From Skermanella pratensis (lineage in GTDB: Bacteria; Pseudomonadota; Alphaproteobacteria; Azospirillales; Azospirillaceae): a stretch of DNA of 64,000 nucleotides. Location of the stretch: positions 62,001 to 126,000 of the forward strand of contig NZ_CP030265.1 in assembly GCF_008843145.1 (NCBI RefSeq). Direction: 5' to 3'. The position numbers and the translations under genes were made by a program. Under the pieces are notes generated by a model that had not been told where the DNA came from, ran no database searches, and saw nothing but the letters and a program-made list of their open reading frames with translations. The stretch's first letter is position 1, and each line of letters starts with the position of its first letter. Of the stretch, positions 7,122 to 40,236 are shown one piece after another.

Positions 7122-7227
7122 CCCCGGACTCCGGTCCGGGGTTGGGTCTTCGGACCCGCGTCTCCCAGACGTGAAGCCTCCCTGTTCAACTCGCCCGCAA
7201 GTCTTTCGATTTGCGGGCGTTCTTTTT
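7122..7227 (+). ncRNA. Candidate structured small RNA with intrinsic terminator
   Basis: Three back-to-back perfect hairpins precede an intrinsic terminator. The first is an 8-bp stem ccccggac/gtccgggg with a four-base loop (7122-7141). The second is gggtc-ttcg-gaccc (7144-7157). The third is cgtct-ccc-agacg (7159-7171). An unpaired stretch containing gcctccctg follows, then the stem cgcccgcaa/ttgcgggcg and a T-tract. No open frame explains this. The 3' part is the integration target of the 33-kb element, as is common for tRNA and sRNA genes. No promoter could be assigned with confidence, so the 5' end is approximate. Confidence 0.5.
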
Positions 7228-7240
7228 GCGGGGAGGGGCG
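7162..7240. repeat. Left attachment repeat (attL)
   Basis: This repeat matches 40158-40236 at 78 of 79 positions; the only mismatch is C at 7229 against T at 40225. Identity begins inside the third hairpin of the candidate sRNA and runs through its terminator. Sequence left of 7162 is chromosomal and sequence right of 7240 belongs to the element. Confidence 0.9.
7192..7227 (+). terminator. Intrinsic terminator in attL
   Basis: A 9-bp perfect stem (7192-7200 with 7211-7219), a 10-base loop and the T-tract ttcttttt form a standard terminator. The same structure occurs at 40188-40223 in the right repeat, so the element restores it on integration. Confidence 0.85.
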
Positions 7241-7263
7241 ACTCAGGCTGGTTAGTGGATGCG

Positions 7264-7282
7264 GGGTACCAAACAGGGTACC
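7264..7282. promoter_or_regulatory. Paired GGGTACC motifs, possible integrase arm sites (left)
   Basis: Two direct copies of gggtacca lie 12 bases apart, 24 bases inside attL. A matching pair is found inside attR. Arm-type binding sites for tyrosine integrases usually have this form; the role here is inferred. Confidence 0.45.
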
Positions 7283-7418
7283 AGCGGCAACGATTTCATT
7301 TTGTTCAATTTGATCCGACTGCCTTGATTTGCCGCGGGAGCCGACGCAACCCGCCACTCCAGCCGCCTGTTTGACTTCCCAGCACCGCCAGAGAGGTCAG
7401 GGAGCCCTCAGCAGTTGC

Positions 7419-7880
7419 TGCCGGGCACACCGGCGGGCACATCGTCAACCTCTCCTCTGTCAGCGGCTTCGTCGGATTTCCGGGCTCCGGCTACTACGCG
7501 GCGACGAAGCATGCCGTCGAAGGCCTTTCGGACGCTCTGGTACGAGAGGTCGAGCCGCTTGGGGGCGAGGTCCTGTGCGTCGAGCCTGGTCCCTTCCGCA
7601 CCGACTGGGCCGGCCGCTCGCTGAAGCAGACCCTAAGCCGGATCGCGACTATGCCGACACCGCCATTGCCCGCATGCAGGCGACCTCCGGTATCAGCGGC
7701 AAGCAGCCCGGCGATCCGGTGCGCGCCTGCGCCGCCATCATCCAGACTGTAGAGGACGAGATCCGGCCGCGCCATCTCGTCCTAGGTGCCTTCGGTGTGG
7801 AAACCGTGTGCGGCAAGCTCGCCGGGGTGGTCGAAAATCAATGCCTGGAGGGCGACCAACCTCGGCGCGGACTTTCCCGA
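7419..7880 (+). pseudogene. Short-chain dehydrogenase remnant, frameshifted
   Basis: The middle of an SDR oxidoreductase can be read in one frame: GHIVNLSSVSGFVGFPGSG followed by YYAATKHAVEGLSDAL, containing the catalytic Ser and the YxxxK pair, then CVEPGPFRTDWAGRSL. At about 7630 the homologous reading jumps frame and continues as DYADTAIARMQATSGISGKQ and PGDPVRACAAIIQTVEDE. The N-terminal nucleotide-binding Rossmann part is missing. The gene is therefore truncated at 5' and frameshifted, and is not functional. Confidence 0.8.
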
Positions 7881-7944
7881 GAGTGAGCGCTGAACCGGAC
7901 CTGCGCCGCACTCGCCCGATCCGGATCCTCAGGGGAATGGGGCA

Positions 7945-8530
7945 GCACTCCGGCTGTACGCGGCGCTGCTGGTCGGCAGCCGGCGCGACCACGGCGTCGC
8001 GCTCGAGGGGCCGGTGCGCGGCGTGGCGAACTGGCAGGCCCGCGCCGGGCAAGGCTACGACCTGCTCCATTTCACGATCGACTGGAACCGCGAGCGGGTC
8101 ACCTGCCCGCAGGGCAAGGTTTCGGTGTCCTGGCGCCCGGCCCGGAACACCGACGGCAGCCCGCGCATCCACGCCCAGTTCAGCCGGTCGGACTGCGGGG
8201 CCTGTGCACCTAGACCAAGAGGCCACGCCGCCACGTCTACTTCCATCCGCGCGAGGAGCACGAGGCGCTCACCGCGGCGCGGGCGCGGATGTCCGATCCC
8301 GCCTGGGAGCAGCGCTACGAGGTCCGGGCCGGGGTGGGGGCACGCTCTCACAGGGCGTCCGCGCCTTCGGAATGCGCCGGAGCCGCTACATCGGGCTGGC
8401 GAAGACCGGGCTTCAGCAGATCTGTATCGCCACCGCGATGAACGTATCGCGGATCGTCAACTGGATCGATGGCCGGCCACGCGCCAAGACGCGCGTCACG
8501 CGCTTCGCTTCCCTGGCACCGGCCGCCTGA
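7945..8530 (+). pseudogene. IS1182-family transposase remnant
   Basis: C-terminal parts of an IS1182-type DDE transposase are spread over frames: NWQARAGQGYDLLHFTIDWN and CPQGKVSVSWRPARNTDG in one frame, with a CGAC cysteine pair, then GTLSQGVRAFGMRRSRYIGL and AKTGLQQICIATAMNVSRI in another. The N-terminal half is absent and at least two frameshifts separate the pieces, so this is a dead insertion sequence. Confidence 0.8.
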
Positions 8531-8539
8531 ATTCGCCGA

Positions 8540-8960
8540 CAGTATCACCGATTCGTCGAGATGCCAGTGCCCGAATATCGGCTTTGGTCGAGGCTGCCGG
8601 AGGCGCCGGCAATGGACGACCCCAATTTGAGTTCCCAGCGCCGGATCGTCTTATAAGATACCTTGAGCCCGCGCTCCGTCAGCAATTCCTCGACGTCCTG
8701 GTAGCCTCAGGGATCCCCTCATTTTTTGCCTTGGTATTCCAACATGTTAGCGGATACCCGACAATAAGGTTGTAAAACTTTACCTTTTTGCCCCCCTTTA
8801 AGTTCGGCGGTTTTACGAGGGCGAAGGTGACTCAAGCACGAGCCTGCCTCATGCCAAAGCGTTCGCCAAGGATTGCAAAGTAAAAAATGAGGGGATCCCT
8901 GAGCCTGGTAGCTCACGATAAACCGGAATCAAAGTTAAAGGGCCCGCCGATGACTACGGA
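8540..8960 (-). pseudogene. IS6-family transposase remnant split by a MITE
   Basis: Read on the minus strand and skipping 8706-8903 plus one target-duplication copy, the sequence encodes RFIVSYQDVEELLTERGLKV then SYKTIRRWELKLG, followed after a frameshift by WHLDESVILSAN. This is the typical start of IS6/IS26-type transposases, with the first catalytic Asp in WHLDE. The rest of the catalytic core is absent. Confidence 0.75.
8706..8903. mobile_element. 198-bp MITE with 9-bp target duplication
   Basis: Perfect 22-bp terminal inverted repeats (ctcagggatcccctcatttt... at the left, its reverse complement at the right) enclose about 150 bases with no gene. The 9-mer cctggtagc flanks both ends (8697-8705 and 8904-8912). 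Removing the element and one copy restores a readable IS6 transposase segment. The parent transposase is not in the window. Confidence 0.85.
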
Positions 8961-9239
8961 TAAGAACCGATGGCAGGTTAGGAGATCGATAGCATCCGAG
9001 CAGGTTTCGTCACCGCTCGCCTATCGCCATCAGTTCCTGTGACAGTGCCGGGAGCGCCCATCCTATCCAGTCCTGCACACACTCGCAATTACAGCGCACT
9101 TGCACCAGACCAATGATCATCTCCTATTGTCTCCTGGTTGGAAAAAGCGTGATGCCTTATAATGCTTCACCGGGATATGCTTTGATTTAGCTCAATGCGC
9201 TTGGAAGAGGTACGAGAAACTCCGAGCAGGGAGTAGAGC
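8913..9239. other. Intergenic stretch before the cyclase fusion gene
   Basis: The first 50 bases are the end of the IS6 remnant. The rest is moderately AT-rich and shows no gene. It must hold the promoter of the 9240 gene; gcagggagtag before the ATG is a plausible ribosome site. Confidence 0.5.
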
Positions 9240-12200
9240 ATGGAAGTGCCGATTTGGCTGCGGAACCTGAACCTCGAGCGCTATGAGGCAACCTTTCTCG
9301 AGAACGAAATCGATGCCGACGTTCTGCCAAAGCTCACGGCTGAGGACCTCATAGAACTCGGAGTAAAGGCGATTGGACATCGCCGCAAGCTGCTCGACGC
9401 CATCGCAGCGCTCCAGGAGGGTGTTGCGCCTGTCGAGTCACCCTCCACCCCACCGCCGGCAGATGAACCGCGCGCACGTGTCAGTTTGGTCAGCGCCGAG
9501 CCCGAACGCCGCCAGTTGACGGTGCTGCTGTGCGACCTCGTCGGCTCGACGGCCTTGTCCGCGCGACTGGATCCAGAGGATCTGCGGGAGGTGGTTTCGG
9601 CCTACCAGCGACGCTGCGCCGAAGTCATCACCCGTTACGAAGGGCATGTCGCCAAATATATGGGCGACGGCGTGCTGGCTTATTTCGGCTATCCTCACGC
9701 TCACGAGGATGATGCCGAGCGCGCCGTGCGCGCTGGATTGGGTCTGGTCGAGGCAATCGACGAACTGAGGCTGGGAGATGACCTGTTGCTTCAGATCCGG
9801 GTCGGCATCGCCACAGGTCTGGTCGTGGTCGGCGATCTGATTGGCGAGGGGGCAGGGCGAGAGGAGGCGGTCGTGGGGGAAACGCCGAACCTTGCTGCCC
9901 GCCTTCAGACCCTTGCGGAGCCCGGCAGCGTGGTGATCGCATCGAGCACGCGGAGGCTCGTCGGCCGTCTCTTTGACCTTACCGATCTGGGCATGCAGAA
10001 CTTGAAGGGCTTCTCCGCGCCGGTGCGGGCCTGGACCGTGCTCGGCTGTAGCAGCAGCACAGAGGGCCGTTTCGAGGCTTTACATGGGCAGGGTCTGACC
10101 GCCCTGGTGGGTCGCGAGCACGAGGTCGGTCTCCTGATGGACAGGTGGGAGCAGACCAGAGAGGGCGAGGGACAGGTGGTCTTGCTCTCAGGTGAACCTG
10201 GTATCGGCAAATCCCGCCTGCTGCTGGCGCTTCGCGACAAGCTCGCCAGTGAGGTTTATACGCCCCTTAGCCATTACTGCTCGCCCTATCACCAGAGCAC
10301 CGCATTTTTCCCAATTATCGGTCTCCTCGAGCGTGCCGCCAACCTGGGCCGGAACGAGACACCGGCGCGGCAGATCGAGAAGCTCGAGGCGCTACTAGCC
10401 TTTTCAACGGAAAACCTCACGGAGGTCGTGCCGCTGCTAGCGGACCTTCTCTCCATCCCAGTCGATGCCCGCTATCCGCCGCTTTATCTCACACCGCAAC
10501 GGCAGAAGCAGCGCACGCTTGAGATCCTGACCGAGCAGCTCGCCGGCCTTGCCGCGAAACAGCCGGTTCTCGCGATCTACGAGGACGTGCACTGGGCCGA
10601 TCCGTCAACCCTCGAACTGCTCGGAATGGTAATCGATCGCGTTCAGCACCTGCCGGTCCTGATAGTGGTGATCTTCCGTCCAGAGTTCACGCCGCCCTGG
10701 GCCGGTTTCGGCCATGTCACCGCCCTGACGCTCAGCCGCCTCGCGCAGCGGCGAGGAGCGGCCATGATCGAGCGGCTGACCGCCGGCAGGCCGCTGCCGC
10801 CCGAGGTGGTCGAGCAGATCCTCGATAAAACGGACGGCATTCCCCTGTTTGTCGAGGAGTTGACCAAGGCCGTCATGGAGTCCGGCCTCCTGCGGGACGA
10901 GGGCGGGCAGTTTGTGCTGACCGGACCGTTGCAGCCGCTCGCCATTCCTGCGACCCTGCACGACAGTCTCATGGCGCGCCTGGACCGCTTGGCGCCGGTC
11001 AAGGAGGTCGCGCAGATCGGCGCAGTCATTGGCCGGGAATTCTCACACGAACTACTCACCGCCATCGCCGACCGGCCAGAAAGCCAGTTGCAGGCAGCCC
11101 TCGATCAACTGATCTCGTCTGAGCTTATTTTCCGCCACGGTATGCCGCCAAGGGCGCGTTACAGTTTCAAGCACGCCCTGGTGCAGGATGCCGCTTACGA
11201 GTCGATGCTCAAGAGCCGGCGGCGCCAGCTTCACGCCCGGATCGGCCAGACGCTCTGCTCACGAGGAGTCAACCAGACCGAGTCCTCCCCGGAGCTGATT
11301 GCGGAGCATTTCACGAGAGCCGGCATGGGGCTTGAGGCGGCGCAATACTGGCTCAAGGCCGGCGAGCGGGCAAAGGCAGCCTACGCCAATCGGGAGGCTT
11401 CATCGCACCTTTCCAAGTGCCTGACTGCCCTCTCGGACGGCAGTACTGCACCGGACCGTCGGGGAGCGGCCGAACGGTTTGAGATGACCGCATTGGCACT
11501 ACTCGGCGATCTGGCGGGCCTTGCCGGCGATCTGCATGCCGCAAATCGTCATTATGATCAGGCGCTGGCCAAGTGCAAGGACCAAGACCTGCGAATCTGG
11601 ATCTCGAACAAGCGCCACCATGCCCGTAGCACGCATCGAAATGGCGCTAAGATTATGTTCTACACGCACGGCGGTGGCAGCGAAACCCTCCTGCTGGTCA
11701 ATCCGCTGGTGTACGGGCTGGCGTTGTTCCAGCCGCTTCTTGAAAGCTTGTGCCAGGATTTCCGGATCATCACCATAGACTGCCGTGGCACCGGCGGCTC
11801 CGACCCGCTGACACGTCCATTCCCGTTGCGGGAGCACGCCGAGGATGTGGCTGCAGTGATCAAAGAGTTGGGGGGCAAGCCGGTGATCGGGGTGGGCCTT
11901 TCCCGTGGGAGCAACCTACTGATCAGACTGGCCGCCTCGCGTCCGGATCTGATCAGTAAGCTGGTGACAGTGGGCTGTCCGCTGGTACCGGGTGGGTTTG
12001 ACAACCTGGCCACGTTCTCCGGCTACTGGCGGCAGTGCCCGGAGGCGCACGAGAGGGGCGATGTCGAGGCGCTGCTGCGCATCCTGGGCTCGTTCATGTA
12101 CTCTGAGCCGGGAACGGAGGAACTGAAGAGGCTCCTCATCGAGCGGGGCTTGCGGCTCTCGCCCGAGACGGTGCTCAGCTTCTACGACCCCGATCCGGAT

Positions 12201-12425
12201 GTGGATGTCAGCCCTCTCCTCGGACGCGTCATGGTGCCAACTCTGGTCATGCATGGCACCGCGGAGCAACTGATTCCCTTCACAGCCGCCGAGTATCTGG
12301 TTCGAGAGTTGCCGGATGCCCAGCTTTATGCCTTCAAGGGCAAAGGGCACCTGCCAATTTTCACCGCAACCGACGAATTCTGCAGTGTTCTTCGCCGCTT
12401 CGTGCGCGAAGCGCCACATGGTTAA
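9240..12425 (+). CDS. SAM domain / class III cyclase / AAA ATPase / alpha-beta hydrolase fusion
   Basis: The product has 1,061 residues and four parts. A SAM domain spans about 1-60 (WLRNLNLERYEATFLENEID). A class III nucleotide cyclase domain spans about 92-270, with metal-binding Asp in LLCDLVGSTALSARLD and in YMGDGVLAYFG, and VVGETPNLAARLQ. An AAA/STAND-type ATPase starts about 290 (Walker A GEPGIGKS near 318; YEDVHWADPSTLELL as Walker B) and runs into a helical region. The last 250 residues are an alpha/beta hydrolase with nucleophile GLSRG, a Glu in HGTAEQLIP where Asp is usual, and GKGHLPIF for the His. Relatives normally end in TPR repeats, so the hydrolase end is unusual. It probably makes or senses a cyclic nucleotide; the substrate is unknown. 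Confidence 0.85.
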   Translation: MEVPIWLRNLNLERYEATFLENEIDADVLPKLTAEDLIELGVKAIGHRRKLLDAIAALQEGVAPVESPSTPPPADEPRARVSLVSAEPERRQLTVLLCDLVGSTALSARLDPEDLREVVSAYQRRCAEVITRYEGHVAKYMGDGVLAYFGYPHAHEDDAERAVRAGLGLVEAIDELRLGDDLLLQIRVGIATGLVVVGDLIGEGAGREEAVVGETPNLAARLQTLAEPGSVVIASSTRRLVGRLFDLTDLGMQNLKGFSAPVRAWTVLGCSSSTEGRFEALHGQGLTALVGREHEVGLLMDRWEQTREGEGQVVLLSGEPGIGKSRLLLALRDKLASEVYTPLSHYCSPYHQSTAFFPIIGLLERAANLGRNETPARQIEKLEALLAFSTENLTEVVPLLADLLSIPVDARYPPLYLTPQRQKQRTLEILTEQLAGLAAKQPVLAIYEDVHWADPSTLELLGMVIDRVQHLPVLIVVIFRPEFTPPWAGFGHVTALTLSRLAQRRGAAMIERLTAGRPLPPEVVEQILDKTDGIPLFVEELTKAVMESGLLRDEGGQFVLTGPLQPLAIPATLHDSLMARLDRLAPVKEVAQIGAVIGREFSHELLTAIADRPESQLQAALDQLISSELIFRHGMPPRARYSFKHALVQDAAYESMLKSRRRQLHARIGQTLCSRGVNQTESSPELIAEHFTRAGMGLEAAQYWLKAGERAKAAYANREASSHLSKCLTALSDGSTAPDRRGAAERFEMTALALLGDLAGLAGDLHAANRHYDQALAKCKDQDLRIWISNKRHHARSTHRNGAKIMFYTHGGGSETLLLVNPLVYGLALFQPLLESLCQDFRIITIDCRGTGGSDPLTRPFPLREHAEDVAAVIKELGGKPVIGVGLSRGSNLLIRLAASRPDLISKLVTVGCPLVPGGFDNLATFSGYWRQCPEAHERGDVEALLRILGSFMYSEPGTEELKRLLIERGLRLSPETVLSFYDPDPDVDVSPLLGRVMVPTLVMHGTAEQLIPFTAAEYLVRELPDAQLYAFKGKGHLPIFTATDEFCSVLRRFVREAPHG

Positions 12426-13124: not shown

Positions 13125-14180
13125 ATGCCGCTGCTTGCTTATGGAATTGATGAGGCCGTTTACCACGCCTGGGCAATGTCACCCTCGGCTTGGCAGGAGT
13201 TGAAGGCCAGCTACCGGCATCGGGGTCTCACCGCCCCGTGCTGCGGGGCGGCAGTCGTTCCTGTCCGCTCACCAACCGGCTGGCAATTCTTCCGCCACAA
13301 GCCGAATACGGTCTGCACCATTCGCGAGAGCCTGGCGCATATCGTCTGCAAGTCGATCATGGCGCGTGCGGCAGCCCGGCTGGGCCTGGACGTTACCACC
13401 GAGGCGCGTGCGGGCGACGGAACCTGGGTTGCCGATGTGCTCGTGCGGCATCCGGATTGGACGGTGGCTCTGGAAGCCCAACTCTCCCGCATTCCGTTGG
13501 CGGCCATTCAGGATCGCCAGGAGCGTTACCGGGAAGCCGGTATTCGCGGCGCCTGGCTGATCGGCTACGACATCGCCAGACTTGAACCTCAGCGCGGTCT
13601 TCCACTGTTCCGTCTGGAGGTGAAGCAGGCCGAGCGCCTCGCACCGGCGGTGATCGACTCCGCGACGGATGGCGCGCCAGCACGAACTGATCTGGCGACA
13701 TTTACTGATAGACTGCTGACCGGACGTGTCCGGTTCGAGGGACCACCTCCCCAGGCCGGTGCACCATCCGTGGCGACCGTGCCATCCGTATGCTGGAAGT
13801 GCTGCCGCGACATCGATCTGATCGTGGCTCTGGTCAATCTTCCGACGCACACCGTTTTCGCGCCCCACGGCATTCTGCCGGCGCGCGATCTTGGCAAGCT
13901 TCCCGAGGCGTTGGCCATCTATCAGAGAGCCATTCCTACGCTGCATGGAGCGTGCGAGTCGCTCACCGCGCTGCGCCGTCCGCCGCCCTCCCGCATCGCG
14001 GCCGGCATGCGCGCGCACTGCCCCTGGTGTGATGCGGCCATCTCCCTACAGAGGGTACCCGAAACAACCCTGACATCCTGCAGATGGCATCTCTGCTGGA
14101 CGCTCGCCGGCCAACCCTGGGCACCGTCAAAGCTGCACTCATCACGCTGGACCTGGACCTGGAGCGGGTCAGCGGACTGA
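13125..14180 (+). CDS. CoiA-like nuclease-fold protein
   Basis: The 351-residue product starts at ATG 13125. It resembles competence protein CoiA: a Cys-rich start (APCCGAAV), then WQFFRHKPNTVCTIRESLAH with an HxxxK helix, then a PD-(D/E)xK-like core VTTEARAGDGTWVADVLVRH with VALEAQLSRI, the usual D...ExQ pattern. Two CxxC pairs further on (CWKCC and CPWC) suggest zinc binding. The last 40 residues are Trp/Ser-rich and look as if read in a wrong frame from about 14060, so the 3' end may be frameshifted. CoiA proteins act on incoming or recombining DNA; the role here is not known. Confidence 0.65.
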   Translation: MPLLAYGIDEAVYHAWAMSPSAWQELKASYRHRGLTAPCCGAAVVPVRSPTGWQFFRHKPNTVCTIRESLAHIVCKSIMARAAARLGLDVTTEARAGDGTWVADVLVRHPDWTVALEAQLSRIPLAAIQDRQERYREAGIRGAWLIGYDIARLEPQRGLPLFRLEVKQAERLAPAVIDSATDGAPARTDLATFTDRLLTGRVRFEGPPPQAGAPSVATVPSVCWKCCRDIDLIVALVNLPTHTVFAPHGILPARDLGKLPEALAIYQRAIPTLHGACESLTALRRPPPSRIAAGMRAHCPWCDAAISLQRVPETTLTSCRWHLCWTLAGQPWAPSKLHSSRWTWTWSGSAD

Positions 14181-17846: not shown

Positions 17847-19567
17847 GGACTTGGTCAGTTTCGTCGGCGGATAGCGGCCACGGCGGTTTGCTGTGGACTA
17901 CGCTGAGGCGTTTTGGCGGATGAGATCGGGGAGCCAGGGCACGCGGTCGGCGTCCGGGATATTTAGCCGGGCCCCGAGGTAGTCCCAGAACGAGATGGCG
18001 AGCTTGGAGCAGGTTTTCAGCAGGCTGAGAAAGGTGTCCCGCGCCTGCTTGCCGGCCGCGGAGCGGGTCTCGCCGGAGATCCTGCGTTTGGTGACGAAGC
18101 TGCGGACATCGTTCTCCGAGCCGTTGGTGTGCAGCGGGATATCTGGCCGGTCGAGGACAAGCAGCAGCTCGTCCTTGTTGGCAAGGGTCCGGGCGACGGC
18201 CTCATCGAGTTCGGCAAAGCCGGTGACCCGGGTGAAGATCCGATCGAAGCGCCGCCTCAACGCCGTTCGGCGGATGGCGTTCGGGTCGTCCTTGTAGAGT
18301 TTGAGATCGGCGTAGAACCACCAGACCAGCTGGCGCTGCAGCGCGACCTGGCGCTGCTGCTCGTTGGTCACGCAGACGATCCGGCGGAGATGGCGCTCGG
18401 CGTGGATCCAACACAAGGCGTGCTGGAAAACGTCGAACTGACCGGCATCATCGGAGATGATCACGGTGTCGGTCAGCAGGCCGCGGGCGACGATGGCTCC
18501 GACCATGGCCGCCTCGGTGACCCGCCGACGATGACCGGCGCCGAAGCCGAAGCTGTCCAGCTGGGCCTGCCACGCCGCATCGTCGGCAAAGCTCCGGGGT
18601 CCGGCGGCGAGCAGAGCGGCGACGATGCTTTCCGGCACGCCGTGTTCGACCAGGTAGGCCAGCGCCGTGGCATTGATCACGTAGTCGGGATGGCCGGCAC
18701 GGAGTAGGTCGAGGAAGTTCAGTCGGCTCTTCGACGGCCGGGTAGCGAACCAGGCGAAGCGGTCATTGCCAATGTGCGTCGTGTACTCGTTGGCCCCAGC
18801 GTGGCGGGCGCCGGTATCATCGACCGTCACCCAGGCGGCAGTTGCCAGCCCGGCCTCCAGGATGGCGTCCTTCTCGGCATGGAAAGCATCCTTGTTGGCC
18901 GTCAGGAGGGTGATAATCTGACCCTTGGAAATGCGCACGCCCAGGCCTCTCAGCTGGGCGCGCAGGCGCTCCACCGTCACCTGCCCCTGGACGTGCTGCA
19001 TCAGCACGAAGCGCACGATCCCGGGGCCAAAGTGGCCGCGCACCTCGGGCGGCAGCGGTGCGATGATCTCCTGGCCGTCCGGTGTCACCCAGCGCTCGCG
19101 GCGGAAGCGGATGACCTGCGGCGCCAGGATCAGATCCTGCACGGTGAAGGGCTCGAAGCCGCGCCGGCGCGAGCCCGCCGGGGCCTCGATGACAAGGGTG
19201 CGCTCCGTGGTCACCGGCGGGGTGCGCCGGCCACTCTGCCGGTTGCGCCGCTGCCGGCGCGCCTCCTTGGTCCTGGCCCGCCTGTCCGGCTCTGTCGCCT
19301 TGTCCATGCCGCCCGGTGCCAGCTTCGGTTTCTTCGGTAGATCCTTCAGCTGGGCGTTCTCTGCCCGCAGCTGCTGGTTCTCCTCTTCCAATGTCGATAC
19401 GCGAACCAGCAGCTCGACCACCAGCTTCTTCAGCTCGGCGAGAGACAGGGCGTCCAAGTCTGGAAGCGGCGCTACGGACATGGCTTAGACAACCATGTCC
19501 ACCCTCATCATGGGAAGCCCTCACATCACCTCGACACACCCGCCGACCGGGGAAACTGACCAAGTCC
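17847..19567. mobile_element. IS66-type insertion sequence with 9-bp target duplication
   Basis: Terminal inverted repeats begin ggacttggtcagttt and end with the complement gaccaagtcc. The 9-mer ctctgcgcg flanks both ends (17838-17846 and 19568-19576). The single large gene resembles IS66 TnpC and no tnpA or tnpB accompanies it, as in the ISBst12 subgroup. It is inserted near the 5' end of the phage SGNH gene. Ends and frame are intact, so the copy may be active. Confidence 0.88.
17898..19481 (-). CDS. IS66-family (ISBst12-like) transposase
   Basis: The 527-residue product starts at cat 19479-19481. The N-terminal leucine-zipper-like helix (LVVELLVRVSTLEEENQQLR) is followed by a basic linker, a zinc-finger-like region and the DDE core, with candidate catalytic residues in WVTVDDTGARHAG, VIISDDAGQFDVF with LCWIHAERHLRR, and HTNGSENDVRSF. 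Length is typical for IS66 TnpC. It fills nearly the whole insertion sequence. Confidence 0.9.
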   Translation of the reverse strand: MSVAPLPDLDALSLAELKKLVVELLVRVSTLEEENQQLRAENAQLKDLPKKPKLAPGGMDKATEPDRRARTKEARRQRRNRQSGRRTPPVTTERTLVIEAPAGSRRRGFEPFTVQDLILAPQVIRFRRERWVTPDGQEIIAPLPPEVRGHFGPGIVRFVLMQHVQGQVTVERLRAQLRGLGVRISKGQIITLLTANKDAFHAEKDAILEAGLATAAWVTVDDTGARHAGANEYTTHIGNDRFAWFATRPSKSRLNFLDLLRAGHPDYVINATALAYLVEHGVPESIVAALLAAGPRSFADDAAWQAQLDSFGFGAGHRRRVTEAAMVGAIVARGLLTDTVIISDDAGQFDVFQHALCWIHAERHLRRIVCVTNEQQRQVALQRQLVWWFYADLKLYKDDPNAIRRTALRRRFDRIFTRVTGFAELDEAVARTLANKDELLLVLDRPDIPLHTNGSENDVRSFVTKRRISGETRSAAGKQARDTFLSLLKTCSKLAISFWDYLGARLNIPDADRVPWLPDLIRQNASA

Positions 19568-20844
19568 CTCTGCGCGCGCCTGCCGGCGGCGTGTCCACTC
19601 TTCAATTGGCGAACGGCAAGACGATCTCCCCGGACGGTTCCGGCTTCGTCCGGGTGCCGTCCGACCTGGTCGATGATCTGGTCGGCGCCGGCTACACGCT
19701 GTCGGAGACGCACCCGCGCCTGGTGCCGGTCACCACCCGCTGCGGGATGGCCTACATCAACCAGTCCTCGGGCACGCAGCAGACCGTCACGTACCGCCAG
19801 CGGTACACCACGGTCAAGCACAGCCGCGCCGCCGGCCTGCGCCTGGTCTACTCAAACACCGAGCTGACCGCGACCGGCGAGTTCGACGGCCCGGCCGCCT
19901 ACACGCTGAAGGCCTCGGTCGAGATCGGCGGCACGCTGTTCCCGGTGTGGTTCGGCGGCAAGCGCGAGGTTCTGGTCGAGCGCGGCGCCTTCGTGATCTC
20001 CGATCCGGTCGGCGTCTCGCTGCCGGCCGGCTCCGAGTTCTACGTCCGCTCCCGCCCCAGCGCCGGCACCCTGGGCGAGAAGTGGCCCACCGGCGACGCG
20101 CTGGTCTCCGCCTACGGCGAGTCCTTCACCGCCGGCGACGTCGTCGACAGCGGCACGCTCGGCAGCAGCACCGCCCAGGGCTTCGGCCCGGTCGCGATCC
20201 TCGGCATGGTGCAGAGCACCGCGCCGTCCTGCGTGATCATCGGCTCCAGCTCGGCCGCCGGCCAGGGCGACACCGCGAACACCTTCGACCGCGACCTCGG
20301 CTACCTGTCGCGCATGCTGTCGTCCAACACCGGCTACTTCCGCCTGGTGCGCGCCTCGCAGACCGCGGAGCACTGGCTCCAGGACAGCCGGCGCCGGATG
20401 GCGCTGATCGGCGCCATTCAGCCGACCCACGCGATCTTCCAGCTCGGCACCAACGACGTCAGCAACGGCGCCTCGTTCGAGGTCGTGCAGGACCGCCTCG
20501 GCCAGTGCTTCTCGCAGCTCGCCGGCATGGGCATCCGCGTGATCGGCACGACCTTCACGCCCTGGACGTCCAGCACGGACACCTTCGCGACGGTCGAGAA
20601 CCAGACCAAGACCGCCTCCAACGCGGTGCGTATCAAGGTCAACAACTGGCTGCGCACCGTTCCGGCCCCGCTCTCCGGCGTGCTGGAGATCGCGGACCAC
20701 GTCGAGACGGCGCGGGACAGTGGCCTGTGGAAGGCCGACGGCACCGCGCAGAAGTGGACCCCGGACGGGCTGCACCTCAGCCAGTTCGGCCACGAATACG
20801 TGGCGGCCAAGATCGCCCCCGATCTGGCGCACTTTACCCTGTAA
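19495..20844 (+). CDS. Phage-associated SGNH hydrolase, 5' end rebuilt by an IS
   Basis: The 449-residue frame has an SGNH hydrolase in its C-terminal half: IGSSSAAGQGD (catalytic Ser block), LGTNDVSNG, and DGLHLSQFGHEY with Asp and His. The N-terminal part is rich in beta strands and may be a virion domain. The first 28 or so residues are encoded by the IS end. Without the IS, the gene joins ATG 17822 in frame: MPFMRTLRAPAGGVSTL. The insertion therefore swapped the first codons but left an open frame with a new ATG; whether it is translated is unknown. The portal gene starts 10 bases after its stop. Confidence 0.75.
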   Translation: MSTLIMGSPHITSTHPPTGETDQVPLRAPAGGVSTLQLANGKTISPDGSGFVRVPSDLVDDLVGAGYTLSETHPRLVPVTTRCGMAYINQSSGTQQTVTYRQRYTTVKHSRAAGLRLVYSNTELTATGEFDGPAAYTLKASVEIGGTLFPVWFGGKREVLVERGAFVISDPVGVSLPAGSEFYVRSRPSAGTLGEKWPTGDALVSAYGESFTAGDVVDSGTLGSSTAQGFGPVAILGMVQSTAPSCVIIGSSSAAGQGDTANTFDRDLGYLSRMLSSNTGYFRLVRASQTAEHWLQDSRRRMALIGAIQPTHAIFQLGTNDVSNGASFEVVQDRLGQCFSQLAGMGIRVIGTTFTPWTSSTDTFATVENQTKTASNAVRIKVNNWLRTVPAPLSGVLEIADHVETARDSGLWKADGTAQKWTPDGLHLSQFGHEYVAAKIAPDLAHFTL

Positions 20845-20854
20845 GGACTGACCC

Positions 20855-24051: not shown

Positions 24052-24875
24052 CGATCATCTTCGACGGCCCGCCCGGCACCAGGCTCGGGGAGGGCGAAAC
24101 CGACGGCATGCACGAGCTGCTGGCGGACGACGACCTCCCGACCTACGAGCTGCCGGACGAGCCGGACGAGGACGAGCTGGTGGAGCTTGCCAAGGCAGCC
24201 GGCCCGACCCTGTCGGCGGCCGACGCCGCCGAGCGCAAGGTGGCGGATCGGATCTACACGGCACTCCGGGCAGCGGTCGCCGCGGCCGACGGCATCGTGG
24301 ACGCCGCCCACAGCGCGCACAGCCCCGACGCCGCGGCGTCCGGCCTCAAGCGGTCGGGTCTCGCCCGGCTGTACGGCCTGGCGATCGACCGCCTGCTCCC
24401 CGTCATGGAAGCGGGCGGTCGCGCCGCGATCGACGGCGCCGACGTGCTGGAGAAGGCCGAGCCGGCGCGGCTCAAGGTCGATCTCAGCCAGCGCAACGGC
24501 AAGATAGCTTCCTTCCTGGAAACCTCCCGGATGGACAAGATCCGGGAGATCACCGCCGAGCAGGAACAGCTCGTCCGCGACGTGGTGACGACCGGCATGG
24601 CGGCGGGCCACCCCCCGGCCAAGATCGCCTCTCTGCTGAGAGAACACATCGGCCTGACGCCCTACCAGACGCAGCAGGTCCAGAACTACCGCGCCGATTT
24701 GGAAGGAGTCGTCCAGATGGTATCACGCCATGAGGGGCTCGAATTGCCAGTTGCCGATGGGAAGCTGATACATTGGCTTCTCGTTGGAAGGCATCATTCA
24801 AGTCGGTCGTTGGTAGCCGTTGGGGAAGCGACAGCGGCAGTGAAAATTCCAGACCTTTTGTGTTTGTGCGCTTAA
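24048..24875 (+). CDS. Truncated phage head morphogenesis (MuF-like) protein
   Basis: The start overlaps the previous stop as ATGA. About 220 residues look phage-derived: acidic start (PDEPDEDELVELAK), helical middle, and EHIGLTPYQTQQVQNYRADL, which is typical of MuF/Gp7 minor head proteins just before their core. From about 24715 the sequence changes to low GC and the remaining 50 residues (HEGLELPVADGKLIHWLLVG) look like foreign readthrough. The conserved MuF core is therefore lost. The 3' end also overlaps the convergent gene 24798-25469. Confidence 0.6.
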   Translation: MTIIFDGPPGTRLGEGETDGMHELLADDDLPTYELPDEPDEDELVELAKAAGPTLSAADAAERKVADRIYTALRAAVAAADGIVDAAHSAHSPDAAASGLKRSGLARLYGLAIDRLLPVMEAGGRAAIDGADVLEKAEPARLKVDLSQRNGKIASFLETSRMDKIREITAEQEQLVRDVVTTGMAAGHPPAKIASLLREHIGLTPYQTQQVQNYRADLEGVVQMVSRHEGLELPVADGKLIHWLLVGRHHSSRSLVAVGEATAAVKIPDLLCLCA

Positions 24876-33891: not shown

Positions 33892-33901
33892 GGTAACCGC
33901 C

Positions 33902-34317: not shown

Positions 34318-37300
34318 TCACGAAACTGGCTCTGTCGGGACATCGCGGGTTTCATGCTCCGCCAGAACCTCAAAATCTGCTAGGGGACCGAGGCGATCCG
34401 TCAGCCATGCTCGCAGATCATTTATCACCATTTGGTTGAACCAAGCGTTCCGGTCCTTCTGGCCGGCTCCGGCAAGCCGATAGCGAACGAGGAATGGGAC
34501 AAACTCCTTTATATATATACCATTATAGGCGTTTGTCCCATTCCTCTGTCTTGCCTTCCTCGCCGCTTCGTGGCTTTCCCAGAGATCGGGATATGCCCGC
34601 GCCATGTCGGCCGCGTTCTCCAGCACCGCGCCGCGTAGCGCCATCTCGTCGAAGCGATCCGGCGCTTCCCAAGGCACCACCTCATGGACCGCAATGGGCA
34701 GCGGCAGGTCGGTGGCGATGATGATCTCGCAGGGATCGGCTGCTGTGCGGTTCACGCCGCGGGCGCGGCCGATGGTTTGTATGACTTCGCCCTCGCAAAT
34801 TGCCCAGCGGATCGCCTCTGCCACTGGGTGCCAGTGCCGGTCCAATGTCACCCCATAGGTCGTGCCATCTGCCATTGCGATGCCGCCGGGTACTTGCTGG
34901 TACCACCCGTCCTGATCTGACAATTGGACCGCCTGTCCGGTCAGCGCCGCCGCCATGAACTCCACCTCCTGAGGTCCTGGAAGGGTGCGGCCATAGGTCT
35001 GAAGCTGATCGATCGCCTTCCAGCTATCAATGCCCGCCGTAGCGTTGAAGTGCGTCGTCTCCATCGTCGCCGGCAGCCCTATCGCGTTCAAGCGCGCCTC
35101 GACCTTCTTCTGCGCGACCAGCAAGACTTGGTTCTTGCCGCGAGCGGCTATACGCGCGAAGCGATGGATTGCTGTCTGGTGATTGGCGGCGGTCGTTTTG
35201 TCCTTGGGTCGGCGGCGGTCATCGTCGATCAGCTTGTGCGCCGAAACAGGAGCGCCAACCACCTGCCGCACCGTGACGTGTGGCATGGTGACGGCCGGCG
35301 TGCAATTGACCATCACCCAGGGGAAATAGGGCTTGATCAGTTCCTCGCGCATGGTCGCATCCAGGAGCAGCGTCGGCCCATGCCAATCGGTGTGGATGTT
35401 GTTGCGGTACAGCAGCCGGACACCGATGATCTCGCCACCGTCCCGGTCGCGATCGACAACGCCGCAATGGATGTTTCCCGTGGCTCCCCGGCCGGCGGCG
35501 AACATCTCGACAATGGCATTCCAGGCGGCTTTCGCCTTCTTGCAGAATTGATTGATCTCGCGGGTGGCTTCGGATTGCCTGCGCCGCTTCTGCGGGTCCA
35601 TTCCCGGGGTGATGCCTGGGTCCACCCGCAACCGCAAGGCCAAGTGGGAAGCCGCTTCAGCGATTTCCTCGGTGATGCCGGCGGCCTCAATCGCCGAACG
35701 GGTCAACCACCCCTCACCGTTGCTGCTGATCGCCGACGCCAACCGACGAGCGTAGGTGTTCCAATCGTTGGTGGCTCCGTCATCAACTCGGCCGCCTCTG
35801 GCGTGGATATACCGTGTCTCCCGCAGTCCAGCGCAGCTCAGCGTGATGCGAGCCTTGCCAAGACCCATAAGGCCAGCCTGCCAGAAGCTCTCGTCAATGA
35901 CAACGAGAGAGACGTCGCCGATGAAGCCGAACTTCGGGTGGAACAGGTACTGGTGCGCCATGTAGATGACGTCCGCCTGCTCGGCTTCGCTTTTCTGGGC
36001 TTGATATCGGCATCTCTCGAAGAGCGAACACCGAAGCTCGGCTCCGCCGACGACGCGGATGCAGGCGGACTTCTCGATCGCAACGCCTGCATCCTTGCAG
36101 TCTTGGACCGCATCGGGGTCTCCGCACATGCGAGGCGCCTTATCGCTATCGGGACCTGACCTCCAACCGGGTACAGGCTGATCACGCCCGCGGATGGCAA
36201 CGGCTTTCAGGCCCATAGCGCGTGCATCTGATGCGGCTTTCTCGGCCAATTCGACGGTCGGCGTGGCAACGATCACCTTGGAGCCCGGTCTTCCCTGCAG
36301 CATGGTATCAGTCAGCGCACGAGTGATCTTCGACTTGCCAATACCGCAGTCGGCCCGTAGAGCTATCTCGGTAGGAGTTCCCCGATAAAGTCCGCGCAGG
36401 TTCCCGCCCGGCACCGGCAACCCGGCCTCCCGCAGCGCTCTGGCGAGCAGGTAGTCGTCGTAAAATTTCCAATATGCCAGCGCCTCGCCGAGCATGTGCT
36501 CCACGGTCGCTCTGACCCTGGCACGTACGTCGGCGACGTCAGTGACGGGTAACGGATAGGTCGGAGCGGACGCGGTTGCGGACCGCGCATCAGCATGGCC
36601 GCGGCTCTCGCGCTCCCAACCAACTATCCTGGTGATCAGAGGGTCGAGGAATTCATCGCTGGCATATCGGGCCACGTCGGCACCACGGTCGGGCCGCTTT
36701 GGGGCCTTCTCGATAGCAACGCGGATTCGTGCCTTCAATCCTTCCTGATCCAGATCCGGTCCGAGGAGCCGAACCGCCGACGCGACCGCCCGCTTGATCG
36801 GCTGATGGAAGCCATCCAGTCCGTCACCGTCCCCCATGCGGGCGAGATAGCCTTCAACGCCGCCGGTATCGCGATAGCTTCCCGCCCCGTCGGTTTGCCG
36901 TTGTCGTGTCCTATCCGGCGGTTGGGGCAGCACAATCGCAACTTCATCCTCCAGTCCTTGGCGGCGCCCAAAGCGGCGAGGTAGCGGATCCACCATACCG
37001 TCGAAGATTGGGCCTGCGGTGTAATGGGGCTGCACGGGATTGAACAATGCCGGGTCGATCAGCTTGCAGCCAGCCTCGGCATTGACATGTTCAGCCCACC
37101 GGTGCAGCTCCTTGTCGCCTACTGGAAAGGGAAGCCAGAACCAGAATCGGGCATTGAGAGTGTCTGGCTTGAAGCCTTGCGATGCTGTCCATTGCCATGA
37201 GCAGCTTACATCGTGGAACTCGGGCGGTAACAACCCAATCAGATACTCGACGGCGTCCTCTGGATCGATGACTGGATCGGTCCCGGCTGGTGCGGGAATG

Positions 37301-37650
37301 GCGTCGAAATCGATTGCGATCCAGCGGCGGTTAACGGTTCTAAATGGGTCAGACGGACCTTTGGAGCGACGCATGACAGTCGCATATATGTTGTCGCCGA
37401 TATTTGCTTCCACGTCTTCACGCAACGTGCCACGTATGACGAAGCAATCAGGACGAGATGCCAAGTTCTCCAGCGCGGTCGCCATGTCATTGAAGCTGTT
37501 GACAGAGACAACGCGCGGCATGAACCACTTGCCGGCATGGTAAGGGATCGACCTCCGCACGCCCTTTTCGTTGAGAATGAACTGCTTTGCTGCACGACCG
37601 GAGCCGGTGCAGATCAGGATTTGGAGGTTGTCAGGCCCATGATCGGCCAT
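34318..37650 (-). CDS. Primase-helicase replication protein
   Basis: The 1,110-residue protein has a primase-like N-terminal half: WIAIDFDAIPAPAGTDPV near residue 113 gives a DxD metal site as in archaeo-eukaryotic primases, followed by WQWTASQGFKPDTLNARFWF. A helicase follows with Walker A ADCGIGKSKITRAL near 435, Walker B LVVIDESFWQ near 585 and QTIGRARGVNRTA near 960, a motif VI typical of superfamily 2. This differs from P4 alpha, whose helicase is superfamily 3. It probably starts replication of the excised element. It is the largest gene of the right end and is transcribed toward the cargo. Confidence 0.75.
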   Translation of the reverse strand: MADHGPDNLQILICTGSGRAAKQFILNEKGVRRSIPYHAGKWFMPRVVSVNSFNDMATALENLASRPDCFVIRGTLREDVEANIGDNIYATVMRRSKGPSDPFRTVNRRWIAIDFDAIPAPAGTDPVIDPEDAVEYLIGLLPPEFHDVSCSWQWTASQGFKPDTLNARFWFWLPFPVGDKELHRWAEHVNAEAGCKLIDPALFNPVQPHYTAGPIFDGMVDPLPRRFGRRQGLEDEVAIVLPQPPDRTRQRQTDGAGSYRDTGGVEGYLARMGDGDGLDGFHQPIKRAVASAVRLLGPDLDQEGLKARIRVAIEKAPKRPDRGADVARYASDEFLDPLITRIVGWERESRGHADARSATASAPTYPLPVTDVADVRARVRATVEHMLGEALAYWKFYDDYLLARALREAGLPVPGGNLRGLYRGTPTEIALRADCGIGKSKITRALTDTMLQGRPGSKVIVATPTVELAEKAASDARAMGLKAVAIRGRDQPVPGWRSGPDSDKAPRMCGDPDAVQDCKDAGVAIEKSACIRVVGGAELRCSLFERCRYQAQKSEAEQADVIYMAHQYLFHPKFGFIGDVSLVVIDESFWQAGLMGLGKARITLSCAGLRETRYIHARGGRVDDGATNDWNTYARRLASAISSNGEGWLTRSAIEAAGITEEIAEAASHLALRLRVDPGITPGMDPQKRRRQSEATREINQFCKKAKAAWNAIVEMFAAGRGATGNIHCGVVDRDRDGGEIIGVRLLYRNNIHTDWHGPTLLLDATMREELIKPYFPWVMVNCTPAVTMPHVTVRQVVGAPVSAHKLIDDDRRRPKDKTTAANHQTAIHRFARIAARGKNQVLLVAQKKVEARLNAIGLPATMETTHFNATAGIDSWKAIDQLQTYGRTLPGPQEVEFMAAALTGQAVQLSDQDGWYQQVPGGIAMADGTTYGVTLDRHWHPVAEAIRWAICEGEVIQTIGRARGVNRTAADPCEIIIATDLPLPIAVHEVVPWEAPDRFDEMALRGAVLENAADMARAYPDLWESHEAARKARQRNGTNAYNGIYIKEFVPFLVRYRLAGAGQKDRNAWFNQMVINDLRAWLTDRLGPLADFEVLAEHETRDVPTEPVS

Positions 37651-37766: not shown

Positions 37767-37843
37767 AATTGGCTTTAGAGGCGGCGCCTACTGGATCAGG
37801 ATTTTGACCGTCCTGATCAGGGCCATCGCGGTAAGGCTGACCT

Positions 37844-38026
37844 CTACCTACCGGTCACGCGAGAAGAGCACCACCGATCGATTTCATCTTTCGGCCATGC
37901 GCGGGTATTCGGACCAAGCTTCACGCCAACTGGAAACCCCTCCTTCTTGATCCATCGAGATAAGGTGACCCGATTGTTGACGATCCCTGCCTTTGCGAGA
38001 TCATCGAAGCGATAATAAATACTCAT
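37844..38026 (-). CDS. AlpA-like excisionase/regulator
   Basis: The chosen ATG (cat 38024-38026) gives 60 residues, the usual size of AlpA proteins. The sequence YYRFDDLAKAGIVNNRVTLS, then WIKKEGFPVGVKLGPNTRAW and PKDEIDRW, is the MerR-like helix-turn-helix of the family. AlpA proteins of P4-like elements control integrase expression and excision. A 32-base dyad upstream (38072-38103) is a likely binding site. The gene lies between integrase and primase and reads toward the primase. Confidence 0.88.
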   Translation of the reverse strand: MSIYYRFDDLAKAGIVNNRVTLSRWIKKEGFPVGVKLGPNTRAWPKDEIDRWCSSRVTGR

Positions 38027-38071
38027 TGCACAAATCCTTGTTCTCTCATGTCTTATGGTGGTAATACATAT

Positions 38072-38103
38072 GATAAACCAAGGCTGCAACAAAAAGGTTT
38101 ATC
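38072..38103. promoter_or_regulatory. Inverted repeat upstream of alpA
   Basis: gataaacc and ggtttatc are exact inverted copies separated by 16 bases, 46 bases upstream of the alpA start in an AT-rich promoter region. A regulator may bind here; which one is not known. Confidence 0.4.
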
Positions 38104-38773
38104 AATAACTCAATTGAGGTAGATCCTTAACGGAGAAACTAGCTAGTTAACCTTGACAGTTAATTTCCTATACTTGGCTTGGTTAAGTTTTCTTTTGAGT
38201 GATCCGCATCGGCAGGAAATTGGCTGTCGAACATCTGACCGAGTCGAGAAAGCTCGGATGAATCGGAGGATCATACCGATAGCAAGGGATCCTTTCACTG
38301 AAGTGAATTTAAGACATATTGCATCTATCATGGCGACTCTGCTTGCAGTGCGACCAGGGCGTCCGTCATCGCTGCCGCTGGCCGCGCAGGTCGCACACTA
38401 TCAGAAGCACCGCATCAAGAAGCTCCGGCAACAGGGCGGAGCCTCAGTTTTGCAACGGGCATGGGATTGCCACGTGCTCGACATATCACAGACCCTGTAC
38501 TTGGCCGCGCAAGGCCGACGCCAGAGCGGGAGCGCCCGTACAAGGCCGCCGGCTCCGCCATCGAGCACCGCCTTCTTCGCGTCATCTGGCTTCTGTCACT
38601 CGGCTTCACCGCCAAGCTGATGACTGACGTCATCTGCCTCACGCCGCGCTGGCTCCAGCGAGTTGGGCGGCCGGTACAATCGACCCGGTCTGGACGGGTT
38701 GGCGATCGCCGCCACTTCATGAAAGACGCAAGACCAGCGTTCAACTGAGACCGCTGATTTGCTTTCCACTTGG
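38104..38773. other. Control region and decayed transposase-like segment
   Basis: The first 170 bases are AT-rich and may hold promoters. From about 38310 the GC rises and no frame is convincing. The frame 38461-38748 contains IEHRLLRVIWLLSLGFTAKL, then TPRWLQRV, and ends VGDRRHFMKDARPAFN, which resembles the DNA-binding start of IS630-type transposases with frameshifts between the pieces. This is a tentative reading. Confidence 0.35.
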
Positions 38774-39988
38774 CTACACGTCAAGCGACGGACTAGCCAA
38801 ATTCAGGATGTGCTGCGCCCACGCTTCCAATGCGTCGCGTTTGGACGCGCTGTGATCCGCCCGCGCATACCGGGAGGTGACGCCAGCAATGGCGCGTTCG
38901 CTATGGTTCAGCACGCGCGCGATCGTCTCGCCGCTGACGCCCAGCTCGCCCATACCTGTCGCGGCCGTGCGCCGAAGATCATGCAGCGTCCACCCGGTAA
39001 CGCCCGTAATTCGGTCAATGGCGCCCTTCGGCTTCTGGAGGTTTGTGTAGCAGCAGCCGCTGCCCCTGGCGGAAAACACGTAATCAACACCAGGAAAGCG
39101 CGGCACCTCGCCCAGCACCTCCCGTGCGACAGTTGAGAGCGGGATCGGGTGCGCGACACCGTTCTTGGACCGATCGGCTGGAAGCGTCCAGACCTCCTTC
39201 TGGAAGTCGATTTCCGACCACCGCATCTCTCTGACCTCGTCACGTCGGGCAGCGGTCAAGATCAGCAGCTTGAACAACGGACCTGCAGGATAGCCAAGCC
39301 CATCGATGGCGTTCCAGACGGCGCGGAACTCATTATTGGTGAGGACCCGGTCCCGGGCCTTTTCTTTGGTCTGGCGGCGCAGCCCGGCCGCCGGATTGAT
39401 CTCGATGATTTCCCGCCCGACCGCCCAGACCAGCAAGGCGTGGGTCGCGGCCTGGACGCGGTTGGCCTGGACAGGCTTACCGGCGTCGATGATCCCGTCG
39501 ATCAGGTCGCGTATGTCGCGCCGCGTCACCGTGGTGATGTCACGGTCACCCAATGTCGGCACCAGATACAGCCGGAACAGCCGCTCAACCTCTTCAGGCC
39601 GGCGAGTATTCCGCTGCGCGTGCCGCTCGACATATTCAGCCGCAACCGAGGCAACGGTGTCCGGTGGCCGTACCTGAGCCGCTGTGGAGTCTCTGAGCTT
39701 TGCGGCGGCCTTCTCGGCCACCGGATCAATGCCGCGCTCGACCTTTTGCAGCGCATCACCAGCCGCTTGGCGCGCTTCAGCCAGAGGCAACATGGGAAAA
39801 GTACCCAACGTCATCCGCCTTTTCGGTCCTCCGCCGGACATGCGATACATAAGGACCCAAGACCGCGTACCCTTGTCGGTGATGCGGATGCCGAATCCGG
39901 GAAGCGATGAGTCCCACCACTCATCCCGGCCGGCCGCAGGAGGCTTGAGTGTCTCGACCGTCCGCGCGGTCAGTTTGATGGTTGGCAT
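38774..39988 (-). CDS. Tyrosine integrase with DUF4102 arm-binding domain (P4-type)
   Basis: The ATG at cat 39986-39988 starts MPTIKLTARTVETLKPPAAG, the standard N-terminus of P4-type integrases, and gives 404 residues; an upstream start at 40072 adds an unconserved leader. The DUF4102 domain covers about 1-95, the SAM-like core-binding domain 115-200, and the catalytic domain carries TAARRDEVREM (first Arg near 248), LHDLRRTAATGMGELGVS (His/Arg near 334) and VTSRYARADH (Tyr near 372). It lies 170 bases inside attR and should catalyse integration into the sRNA terminator site. Confidence 0.95.
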   Translation of the reverse strand: MPTIKLTARTVETLKPPAAGRDEWWDSSLPGFGIRITDKGTRSWVLMYRMSGGGPKRRMTLGTFPMLPLAEARQAAGDALQKVERGIDPVAEKAAAKLRDSTAAQVRPPDTVASVAAEYVERHAQRNTRRPEEVERLFRLYLVPTLGDRDITTVTRRDIRDLIDGIIDAGKPVQANRVQAATHALLVWAVGREIIEINPAAGLRRQTKEKARDRVLTNNEFRAVWNAIDGLGYPAGPLFKLLILTAARRDEVREMRWSEIDFQKEVWTLPADRSKNGVAHPIPLSTVAREVLGEVPRFPGVDYVFSARGSGCCYTNLQKPKGAIDRITGVTGWTLHDLRRTAATGMGELGVSGETIARVLNHSERAIAGVTSRYARADHSASKRDALEAWAQHILNLASPSLDV

Positions 39989-40007
39989 GACGTGAAACCT
40001 GACCTTC

Positions 40008-40025
40008 GGGTACCAATCGGGTACC
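40008..40025. promoter_or_regulatory. Paired GGGTACC motifs, possible integrase arm sites (right)
   Basis: Two direct copies of gggtacca lie 11 bases apart, 20 bases upstream of the integrase start, and a third inverted copy is at 40055-40061. Their position would let integrase both bind arms and control its own promoter (inference). Confidence 0.45.
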
Positions 40026-40157
40026 AAAAACTGAGTTGCTCGGGCGTTATCCCCGGTACCCCAATGTAACACGGAAGTGGTGAAATCAATATTAAAACAG
40101 GGTCCTACAGCCTCTGGCTTTACGTCAAGAAACCACTTGGAACTACAGTTCCCAAGC

Positions 40158-40236
40158 CTCCCAGACGTGAAGCCTCCCTGTTCAACTCGCCCGCAAGTCT
40201 TTCGATTTGCGGGCGTTCTTTTTGTGGGGAGGGGCG
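40158..40236. repeat. Right attachment repeat (attR)
   Basis: The second copy of the 79-bp repeat lies 170 bases upstream of the integrase start and directly before the Cache-domain gene. It carries the terminator stem but not the first two sRNA hairpins, as expected if the crossover is in the RNA's 3' part. Confidence 0.9.

Follow-up and report, generated by a model that had tools for sequence, protein, structure and literature searches.

What placed 33 kb of DNA next to a truncated copy of a small RNA (sRNA) gene in Skermanella pratensis? We examined a stretch of 64,000 nt (contig NZ_CP030265.1, positions 62,001 to 126,000 of the forward strand, assembly GCF_008843145.1), hereafter the window, in which a first-pass annotation made from the letters alone had delimited an island by a 79-bp direct repeat. 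Our analysis indicates, with high confidence, that these 33 kb are an integrative element that its own P4-type tyrosine integrase placed in a conserved, LysR-linked regulatory sRNA gene, within the 3′ half of that gene. Insertion is the preferred interpretation because the repeats resemble attachment (att) sites, the site is empty in two genomes of the same genus, the sRNA target is conserved, and the terminator appears to be supplied by the element. Coordinates refer to the window; the genomes and loci compared bear G and L numbers, G000 being the genome of the window.

The left (attL) and right (attR) copies of the repeat, and the first gene beyond them, are as follows.

7162-7240, plus strand: attL copy of the 79-bp repeat (self-comparison and flank alignment).
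40158-40236, plus strand: attR copy, read as the displaced original 3′ end (self-comparison and flank alignment).
40250-40735, minus strand: right-flank chromosomal gene, which immediately follows the sRNA in G001 and G002 (comparison with these genomes).

The coordinates and the single mismatch of the repeat were reproduced, the mismatch falling at offset 67; identity ends at offset 79 and, on the other side, one base upstream. A plus-strand self-comparison of the window (at least 85 % identity, E ≤ 1e-5) listed no other direct repeats. The repeat starts inside a stem (7159-7171) of which CGT lies outside and CTCCCAGACG inside, and it includes a terminator hairpin (7192-7219) and a run of T (7223-7227), in agreement with the first-pass description of a repeat that begins in a hairpin of a candidate sRNA and contains its terminator. 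An uninterrupted join, which that annotation proposed to seek in relatives, was found in two of them: the flanks of the window, joined by script, could be aligned in one unbroken stretch over the junction, at 95.8 % over 1095 bp with G002 and at 90.9 % over 1168 bp with G001, so that the site is uninterrupted in these two same-genus genomes, where the LysR gene, the sRNA and the right-flank genes are contiguous. The GC content in 2-kb intervals was 0.56-0.69 in the island and 0.63-0.72 outside. There was no tRNA at the junctions, the only tRNA call in the window (13883-13972) being away from both.

Next to attR, the island contains the gene for its putative integrase.

38774-39988, minus strand: P4-type tyrosine integrase (Pfam; PHROG integrase; invariant R, HxxR, H and Y columns).

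The open reading frame (ORF) spans 38774-40072 on the minus strand, and its likely ATG is at 39988, which leaves 170 bases to the start of attR (40158), the distance already given in the first-pass annotation. The product contains the Pfam domains Arm-DNA-bind_3, Phage_int_M and Phage_integrase, in line with the assigned type, and the R, HxxR, H and Y columns, which we take to be the catalytic residues, were invariant in a 10-row alignment.

The left end of the island lies downstream of a conserved gene arrangement.

4851-5897, plus strand: trxB, thioredoxin reductase, left flank (NCBIfam TIGR01292, 415 bits, above cut-off).
6104-6994, plus strand: LysR-type regulator gene in the LsrB/VtlR position, beside the sRNA (tblastn in 30/33 loci).
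7016-7034, plus strand: CCATGC-N7-GCATGG, candidate LysR-type box upstream of the sRNA (ATGC-N7-GCAT in 42/51 loci).
7090-7227, plus strand: sRNA gene, which the element would reconstitute; the 5′ end is estimated, with helices from about 7120 (covarying structure).
7160-7191, plus strand: core GTCTCCCAGACGTGAAGCCTCCCTGTTCAACT, of which 7162-7191 is common to attL and attR (identical in 47/47 aligned loci).

With 181 bases from around the left repeat as query, matches were obtained in 34 of 59 relatives, and 91 bases sufficed to find the sRNA in 73 of 82 family genomes and in at least 111 of 385 genomes across the class (E ≤ 1e-6); counts of sRNA loci include the genome of the window. In 30 of 33 loci the RNA is preceded by the LysR gene, with tblastn identities of 64-100 %, the remaining three being an attR copy, a paralogue and a contig end. 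The end of trxB was present in 22 of the 33 within the 1.5 kb of flank examined. We aligned 47 of 51 loci, leaving out L023 and L024 (near-copies of L022), L125 (the same place as L114) and L112, which has one extra base in the core. The 32-nt core was invariant throughout the alignment, the loci having been chosen by core match. The consensus structure has four helices, three of them covarying, and not the three hairpins annotated initially; the helix cut by the start of the repeat hardly varies and is uninformative on covariation either way. Eighteen of 25 base pairs changed on both sides, a value equalled in 4/500 shuffles, and cells with changes on both sides numbered 188, whereas shuffles gave 65.5 ± 7.5 (0/500 as good); besides, 91.3 % of the alignment cells pair, and shifting the partners lowers every covariation measure. 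Since the covariation counts exceed those of shuffles and shifted partners score lower, there is good evidence that the target is a structured RNA.

Alternatively, there could be no separate sRNA gene, the target being merely the terminator or the 3′ untranslated region (3′UTR) of the LysR gene. In keeping with this, no Rfam family reaches its gathering score, and SorX, a weak match here, is itself derived from a 3′UTR according to passages in PMC9438474. Nevertheless, covariation in three helices and the near-invariance of the core, which includes CUCCCA and CCUCCCU, argue against it, as does the presence of a LysR-type box between the LysR gene and the RNA: the pattern ATGC-N7-GCAT, counted without a chance control, precedes the core in 42 of 51 loci, and three of the nine loci missing it have too little upstream sequence. 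We consider this explanation improbable, and an RNA derived from a 3′UTR would still be a regulatory RNA target.

Which sRNA is it? At gathering threshold, Rfam gave no match in the window, and permissive scans at the sRNA returned sub-threshold matches only, mostly to MmgR and SorX, some to SorY, one to anti-hemB and one to a betaproteobacterial sRNA. Both suhB/MmgR (RF00519; 19.2 of the 41 bits required in the window, up to 30.8 in relatives) and SorX (RF02784; 18.5 of 46.6 bits in the window, up to 30.6 in relatives) were rejected, being below the gathering threshold in the window and in relatives. Rfam contains an AbcR family model, which gave no match at E ≤ 5 in the window and none at E ≤ 1 in 19 loci; in the absence of such a match, we did not assign the sRNA to AbcR. 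There are, however, likenesses in place and layout to these RNAs, as described in passages of the papers cited. In Agrobacterium, the gene order is trxB, vtlR, abcR1, abcR2 (PMC7486931); the first hairpin of the AbcR sRNAs of Brucella carries motif M1 (CUCCCA), and motif M2 (GUUCCC) is situated between hairpins (PMC5461406); and AbcR1/2 of S. meliloti act through two anti-Shine-Dalgarno motifs (PMC8844928). Like AbcR1 and AbcR2, the sRNA of the window is situated 3′ of trxB and a LysR gene, the latter placed by position; it has CUCCCA (7162-7167) across the loop of a small hairpin, and an anti-Shine-Dalgarno stretch, CCUCCCUGUU (7178-7187), between this hairpin and the terminator. Unlike them, it has another primary sequence and no AbcR match in Rfam, its CUCCCA lies at the loop of the third helix of the consensus, and the letters of its second seed are CCUCCCU, as against GUUCCC in Brucella (PMC5461406). 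Judged by this place and layout, it may function like an AbcR RNA. The passages that a term search found in a paper on Azospirillum sRNAs (PMC7685610) contained no such RNA. Apparent paralogous sRNAs with the same seed occur in the same genome (L003, G000:C1:1502197) and in same-genus relatives (L123, L124); the second matches of G001 and G002 span the same query bases as L003.

Comparing insertions in relatives, as had been suggested at the outset, indicated that the same site is occupied repeatedly in several alphaproteobacterial families, mostly in association with related integrases. Most of the 82 family genomes have one listed core match and 12 have more than one. In seven of the 82, including that of the window (G000, G059, G070, G072, G078, G085 and G092), a P4-type integrase lies just inside the second core copy; these second copies are without the 5′ hairpins and start in roughly the same stretch, and the two copies of G085 are on different contigs. 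At least four more of the 385 genomes of the class have a second core with an integrase, three of them (G396, G185, G404) with the same layout and one (G140) in which core and integrase share a contig and the sRNA is on a different one; this count is a lower bound, since at most two candidates were scored per genome (E ≤ 1e-6). Besides G000, at least 12 genomes in this class-wide search had two listed places: the same four with an integrase, and eight in which none was found beside the second place (G355, G290, G379, G346, G384, G284, G133 and G324). A contig scan with ten site integrases produced 478 loci, and among the best 80, those closest to the integrase of the window, in ten the core precedes the integrase match by 157-220 bp, with the same polarity, and in eight a tRNA gene occurs in the interval that begins 700 bases upstream. 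Four of the ten were already counted (G085, G070, G092, G396), L188 and L190 are from one metagenome-assembled genome, and Paramagnetospirillum caucaseum is also among them.

Other candidates were discarded. Genomes G003 and G004 have extra DNA 3′ of the sRNA, but they were rejected as occupied sites, with no nearby second core and no integrase found there. Their second matches (L123, L124) and the third of G000 (L003) were likewise rejected as att copies, as they look like paralogous sRNAs. The plasmid and phage collections gave no match to the sRNA, and no ORF of at least 150 aa in the sequence examined from five viral contigs with the core 25-mer matched the integrase profile. Viral contigs L137, L140 and L136 have the core without clear 5′ hairpins upstream. 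Genome G078 carries a third core copy almost 1 kb past attR (L084:356, L084:1326), as if a tandem second element had been inserted and then lost.

We built a tree of 84 integrases, sampled by similarity to that of the window and including 15 at this site, from which L216 (partial), L190 (identical row) and the integrase of G140 were omitted. Twelve of the 15 form one clade (support 98/94), outside which the integrase of G059 pairs with that of G078. Use of the site needs one change on this tree, against an average of 14.0 in shuffles (0/500 as low). A single split for all the site integrases had support 35/97 and was present in 38 % of the bootstrap trees, and a single origin for them is possible. 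The clade of twelve, together with near-identical pairs (G072 and the L175 record of G092), would also suit a single, vertically inherited element lineage instead of repeated insertion. This is very unlikely, given that selected cargo genes, size and arm word vary among the islands compared, that most family genomes list a single core match, and that the site is common to several families.

The attL end has the following terminator.

7192-7227, plus strand: terminator hairpin and run of T at attL, read as supplied by the element (fold of -22.1 kcal/mol, the same in both copies).

A hairpin followed by a run of at least four T was found at attL in all 11 copies tested, the folds ranging from -20.0 to -23.3 kcal/mol. 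In G072, G092, G059, G396, G185 and G404, the attL hairpin is clearly unlike that of attR, and the two sequences do not become identical again beyond it, indicating that the exchange lies in the core. Moreover, the attR hairpin of G059 is the same as the one found in G028, where the site is single-copy. The two hairpins are identical in the window, in G078 and in G085, and thus uninformative on replacement. The proposal in the first-pass annotation that the element restores the terminator is supported by the hairpins at attL, the replacement itself being seen in relatives. The attL terminator hairpins of G059 and G072 (L082, L078) are the same despite different integrases and arm words, which may be the trace of an element that was there earlier.

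Both sides of the core also contain candidate arm sites for the integrase.

7264-7283, plus strand: left arm candidate, doubled GGGTACCA with spacing 12 (0/100 shuffles as good).
40008-40026, plus strand: right arm candidate, doubled GGGTACCA with spacing 11 (motif search with shuffles).

An inverted third copy of GGGTACC occurs at 40055-40061. The same 7-bp word is doubled on both sides of the core in 10 of the 11 integrase-bearing cases with both ends, and in each of these ten none of 100 single-base shuffles was as good. The doubled words, with spacing 11-12, are located after the attL terminator, at about +76 to +99 from the core, and before the attR core, at about -144 to -176; the word itself varies by element, being GGGTACC in the window and GGGTCCC, GGGTCTC, GTTACTA or others elsewhere. 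A right-arm pair was present in the six further loci that have only attR, from five genomes, and the four-fold word match was absent from G020 and G355, which have no integrase there. G020 retains a left-arm pair, with a degraded core copy 5.7 kb away. With a pattern allowing up to 2 mismatches in 20, which also misses the degraded copy of G020, no second core was found in G018, G008 and G336, which have left-arm-like pairs. Doubled words on both sides of the core are what would be expected of the arms of the element's own site, attP, and we infer that they are candidate arm-type integrase sites. In G404, attR diverges within CCCAGACG, leaving GACGTGAAGCCTCCCTGTTCAACT shared, and the crossover is probably near the 7-bp CCTCCCT, between the imperfect inverted repeats GACGTGAAG and GTTCAACTC. 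Both core copies of G140 (L235, L236) carry the same change (CTGTAACTAGCC), so the core of this element may follow the sRNA of its host.

We thus envisage that the integrase would bind the doubled arm motifs on both sides and that strand exchange would occur inside the conserved core, at CCTCCCT. As attP would bring the rest of the core and a complete terminator, the sRNA gene at attL would retain its seeds and regain a terminator, and the original 3′ end would be displaced to attR. That the repeat is a duplicated sRNA gene, with ordinary variable DNA in between, is hardly credible: paralogues do exist elsewhere in the genus (L003, L123, L124), and G003 and G004 vary in the DNA 3′ of the sRNA, where no integrase was found, but in the islands the 5′ hairpins are missing from the second copies, which start at about the same stretch each time, integrase and doubled motifs recur at similar distances across cases, and G001 and G002 have the uninterrupted site.

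Several observations nonetheless weigh against insertion by the resident integrase. The terminators at attL and attR of the window are identical, so that replacement was observed in relatives only. The integrase of the window shows at most 42 % identity to any relative among the family matches at E ≤ 1e-60, and it has no supported placement in the tree. Genomes G020 and G355 have second core copies without an integrase there, and G140 has pairs on both sides, but its left and right words differ and the copies are on separate contigs. Finally, the island contains an insertion sequence (IS), a resolvase and remnants of transposases, and may therefore now be immobile.

The remaining genes of the island are of mixed nature.

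9240-33891, both strands: cargo, comprising a cyclase/AAA/hydrolase fusion, a CoiA-like nuclease, GDSL lipases, a PhoD-like phosphatase, IS66, a phage portal and head gene, a serine resolvase, sensor kinases and an endonuclease (domain searches).
34318-37650, minus strand: primase/helicase-like protein (PHROG DNA primase, E=6e-19; PADLOC typeIV_DinG, E=3e-10).
37844-38092, minus strand: AlpA-like small protein, possibly an excisionase (PF05930, E=3.6e-4, 0.2 bit below the Pfam cut-off).

An integrase, an AlpA-type regulator and a primase together are a mark of satellites of the P4 or phage-inducible chromosomal island (PICI) kind. All three are present in the island, the AlpA match being just below cut-off. 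ORF 9240-12425 combines a SAM domain, a nucleotide cyclase domain, an AAA ATPase and an alpha/beta hydrolase, and its cyclase part matches the Pycsar cyclase models of PADLOC. A GDSL esterase related to a phage family, a portal protein and a head morphogenesis gene cluster in 19495-24875, forming a phage fragment in the island. Among the genes selected from other islands, there are matches to an AbiU model in G072, to a type IIG restriction enzyme in G092, to UvrD-type helicases of defence systems in G078 and to a TonB receptor in G404.

Passages in the literature place this insertion among known systems. One kind is that of islands and prophages in tRNA and tmRNA genes (Islander, PMC4383910), with which the present element shares a tyrosine integrase, a split target restored by the element and a displaced fragment at the far end; here, in contrast, the target is a regulatory sRNA with its terminator. 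The Salmonella phage PhiW104 integrates at ryeA/ryeB, using the last 23 bp of ryeB, and the review that describes it counts sRNA genes among the favoured prophage sites, with sites conserved between E. coli, Salmonella and beyond (PMC7380047); pneumococcal prophages integrate in csRNA3 and in the RNA of the signal recognition particle (SRP RNA; PMC8637289). These have in common with the window an sRNA gene as attachment site; the sRNAs and the bacteria are others, and in the present case a single alphaproteobacterial sRNA is used in several families, mostly by related P4-type integrases. In HE-PICI satellites, the core is flanked on each side by a co-oriented doubled attP motif, at 81 and 132 bp from the centre (PMC10111431), similar to the doubled motifs found here at about 70-92 and 150-183 bp; those satellites disrupt phage late genes without replacement and have one motif sequence, whereas here the word varies and the target is restored. 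The first-pass annotation had regarded an sRNA terminator as a less described site; the insertion is less novel in kind than that, because sRNA genes are documented sites in passages of two of these papers (PMC7380047, PMC8637289), although this particular target appears new in the literature searched. The open-access matches listed in a search on RNA genes as integration sites included precedents in other bacteria and none for this sRNA. Within that literature, the sRNA as a recurrent target, its spread over families, the attP anatomy and motif geometry, and the replacement of the terminator appear to be new.

We tentatively propose, as a possibility somewhat short of an even chance, that a LysR-controlled, AbcR-type sRNA is a class-wide safe harbour in Alphaproteobacteria, comparable to a tRNA gene, for a lineage of P4-type integrases. 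Exchange would take place in a conserved anti-Shine-Dalgarno seed that the host can hardly change, and each insertion would swap the terminator, which may retune the level of a global nutrient-uptake regulator. A doubled word that varies in a nearly constant position bears on the question, raised in a passage of PMC10111431, of whether the arm domain of the integrase binds such motifs. With the site, the core, the candidate arm motifs and the integrase group named, base-level mapping of islands becomes possible in Azospirillum and its relatives. Like a tRNA gene, a single conserved regulatory RNA gene can thus be an integration site common to bacterial families, and this raises the question of whether replacing the terminator of this sRNA alters its regulon.

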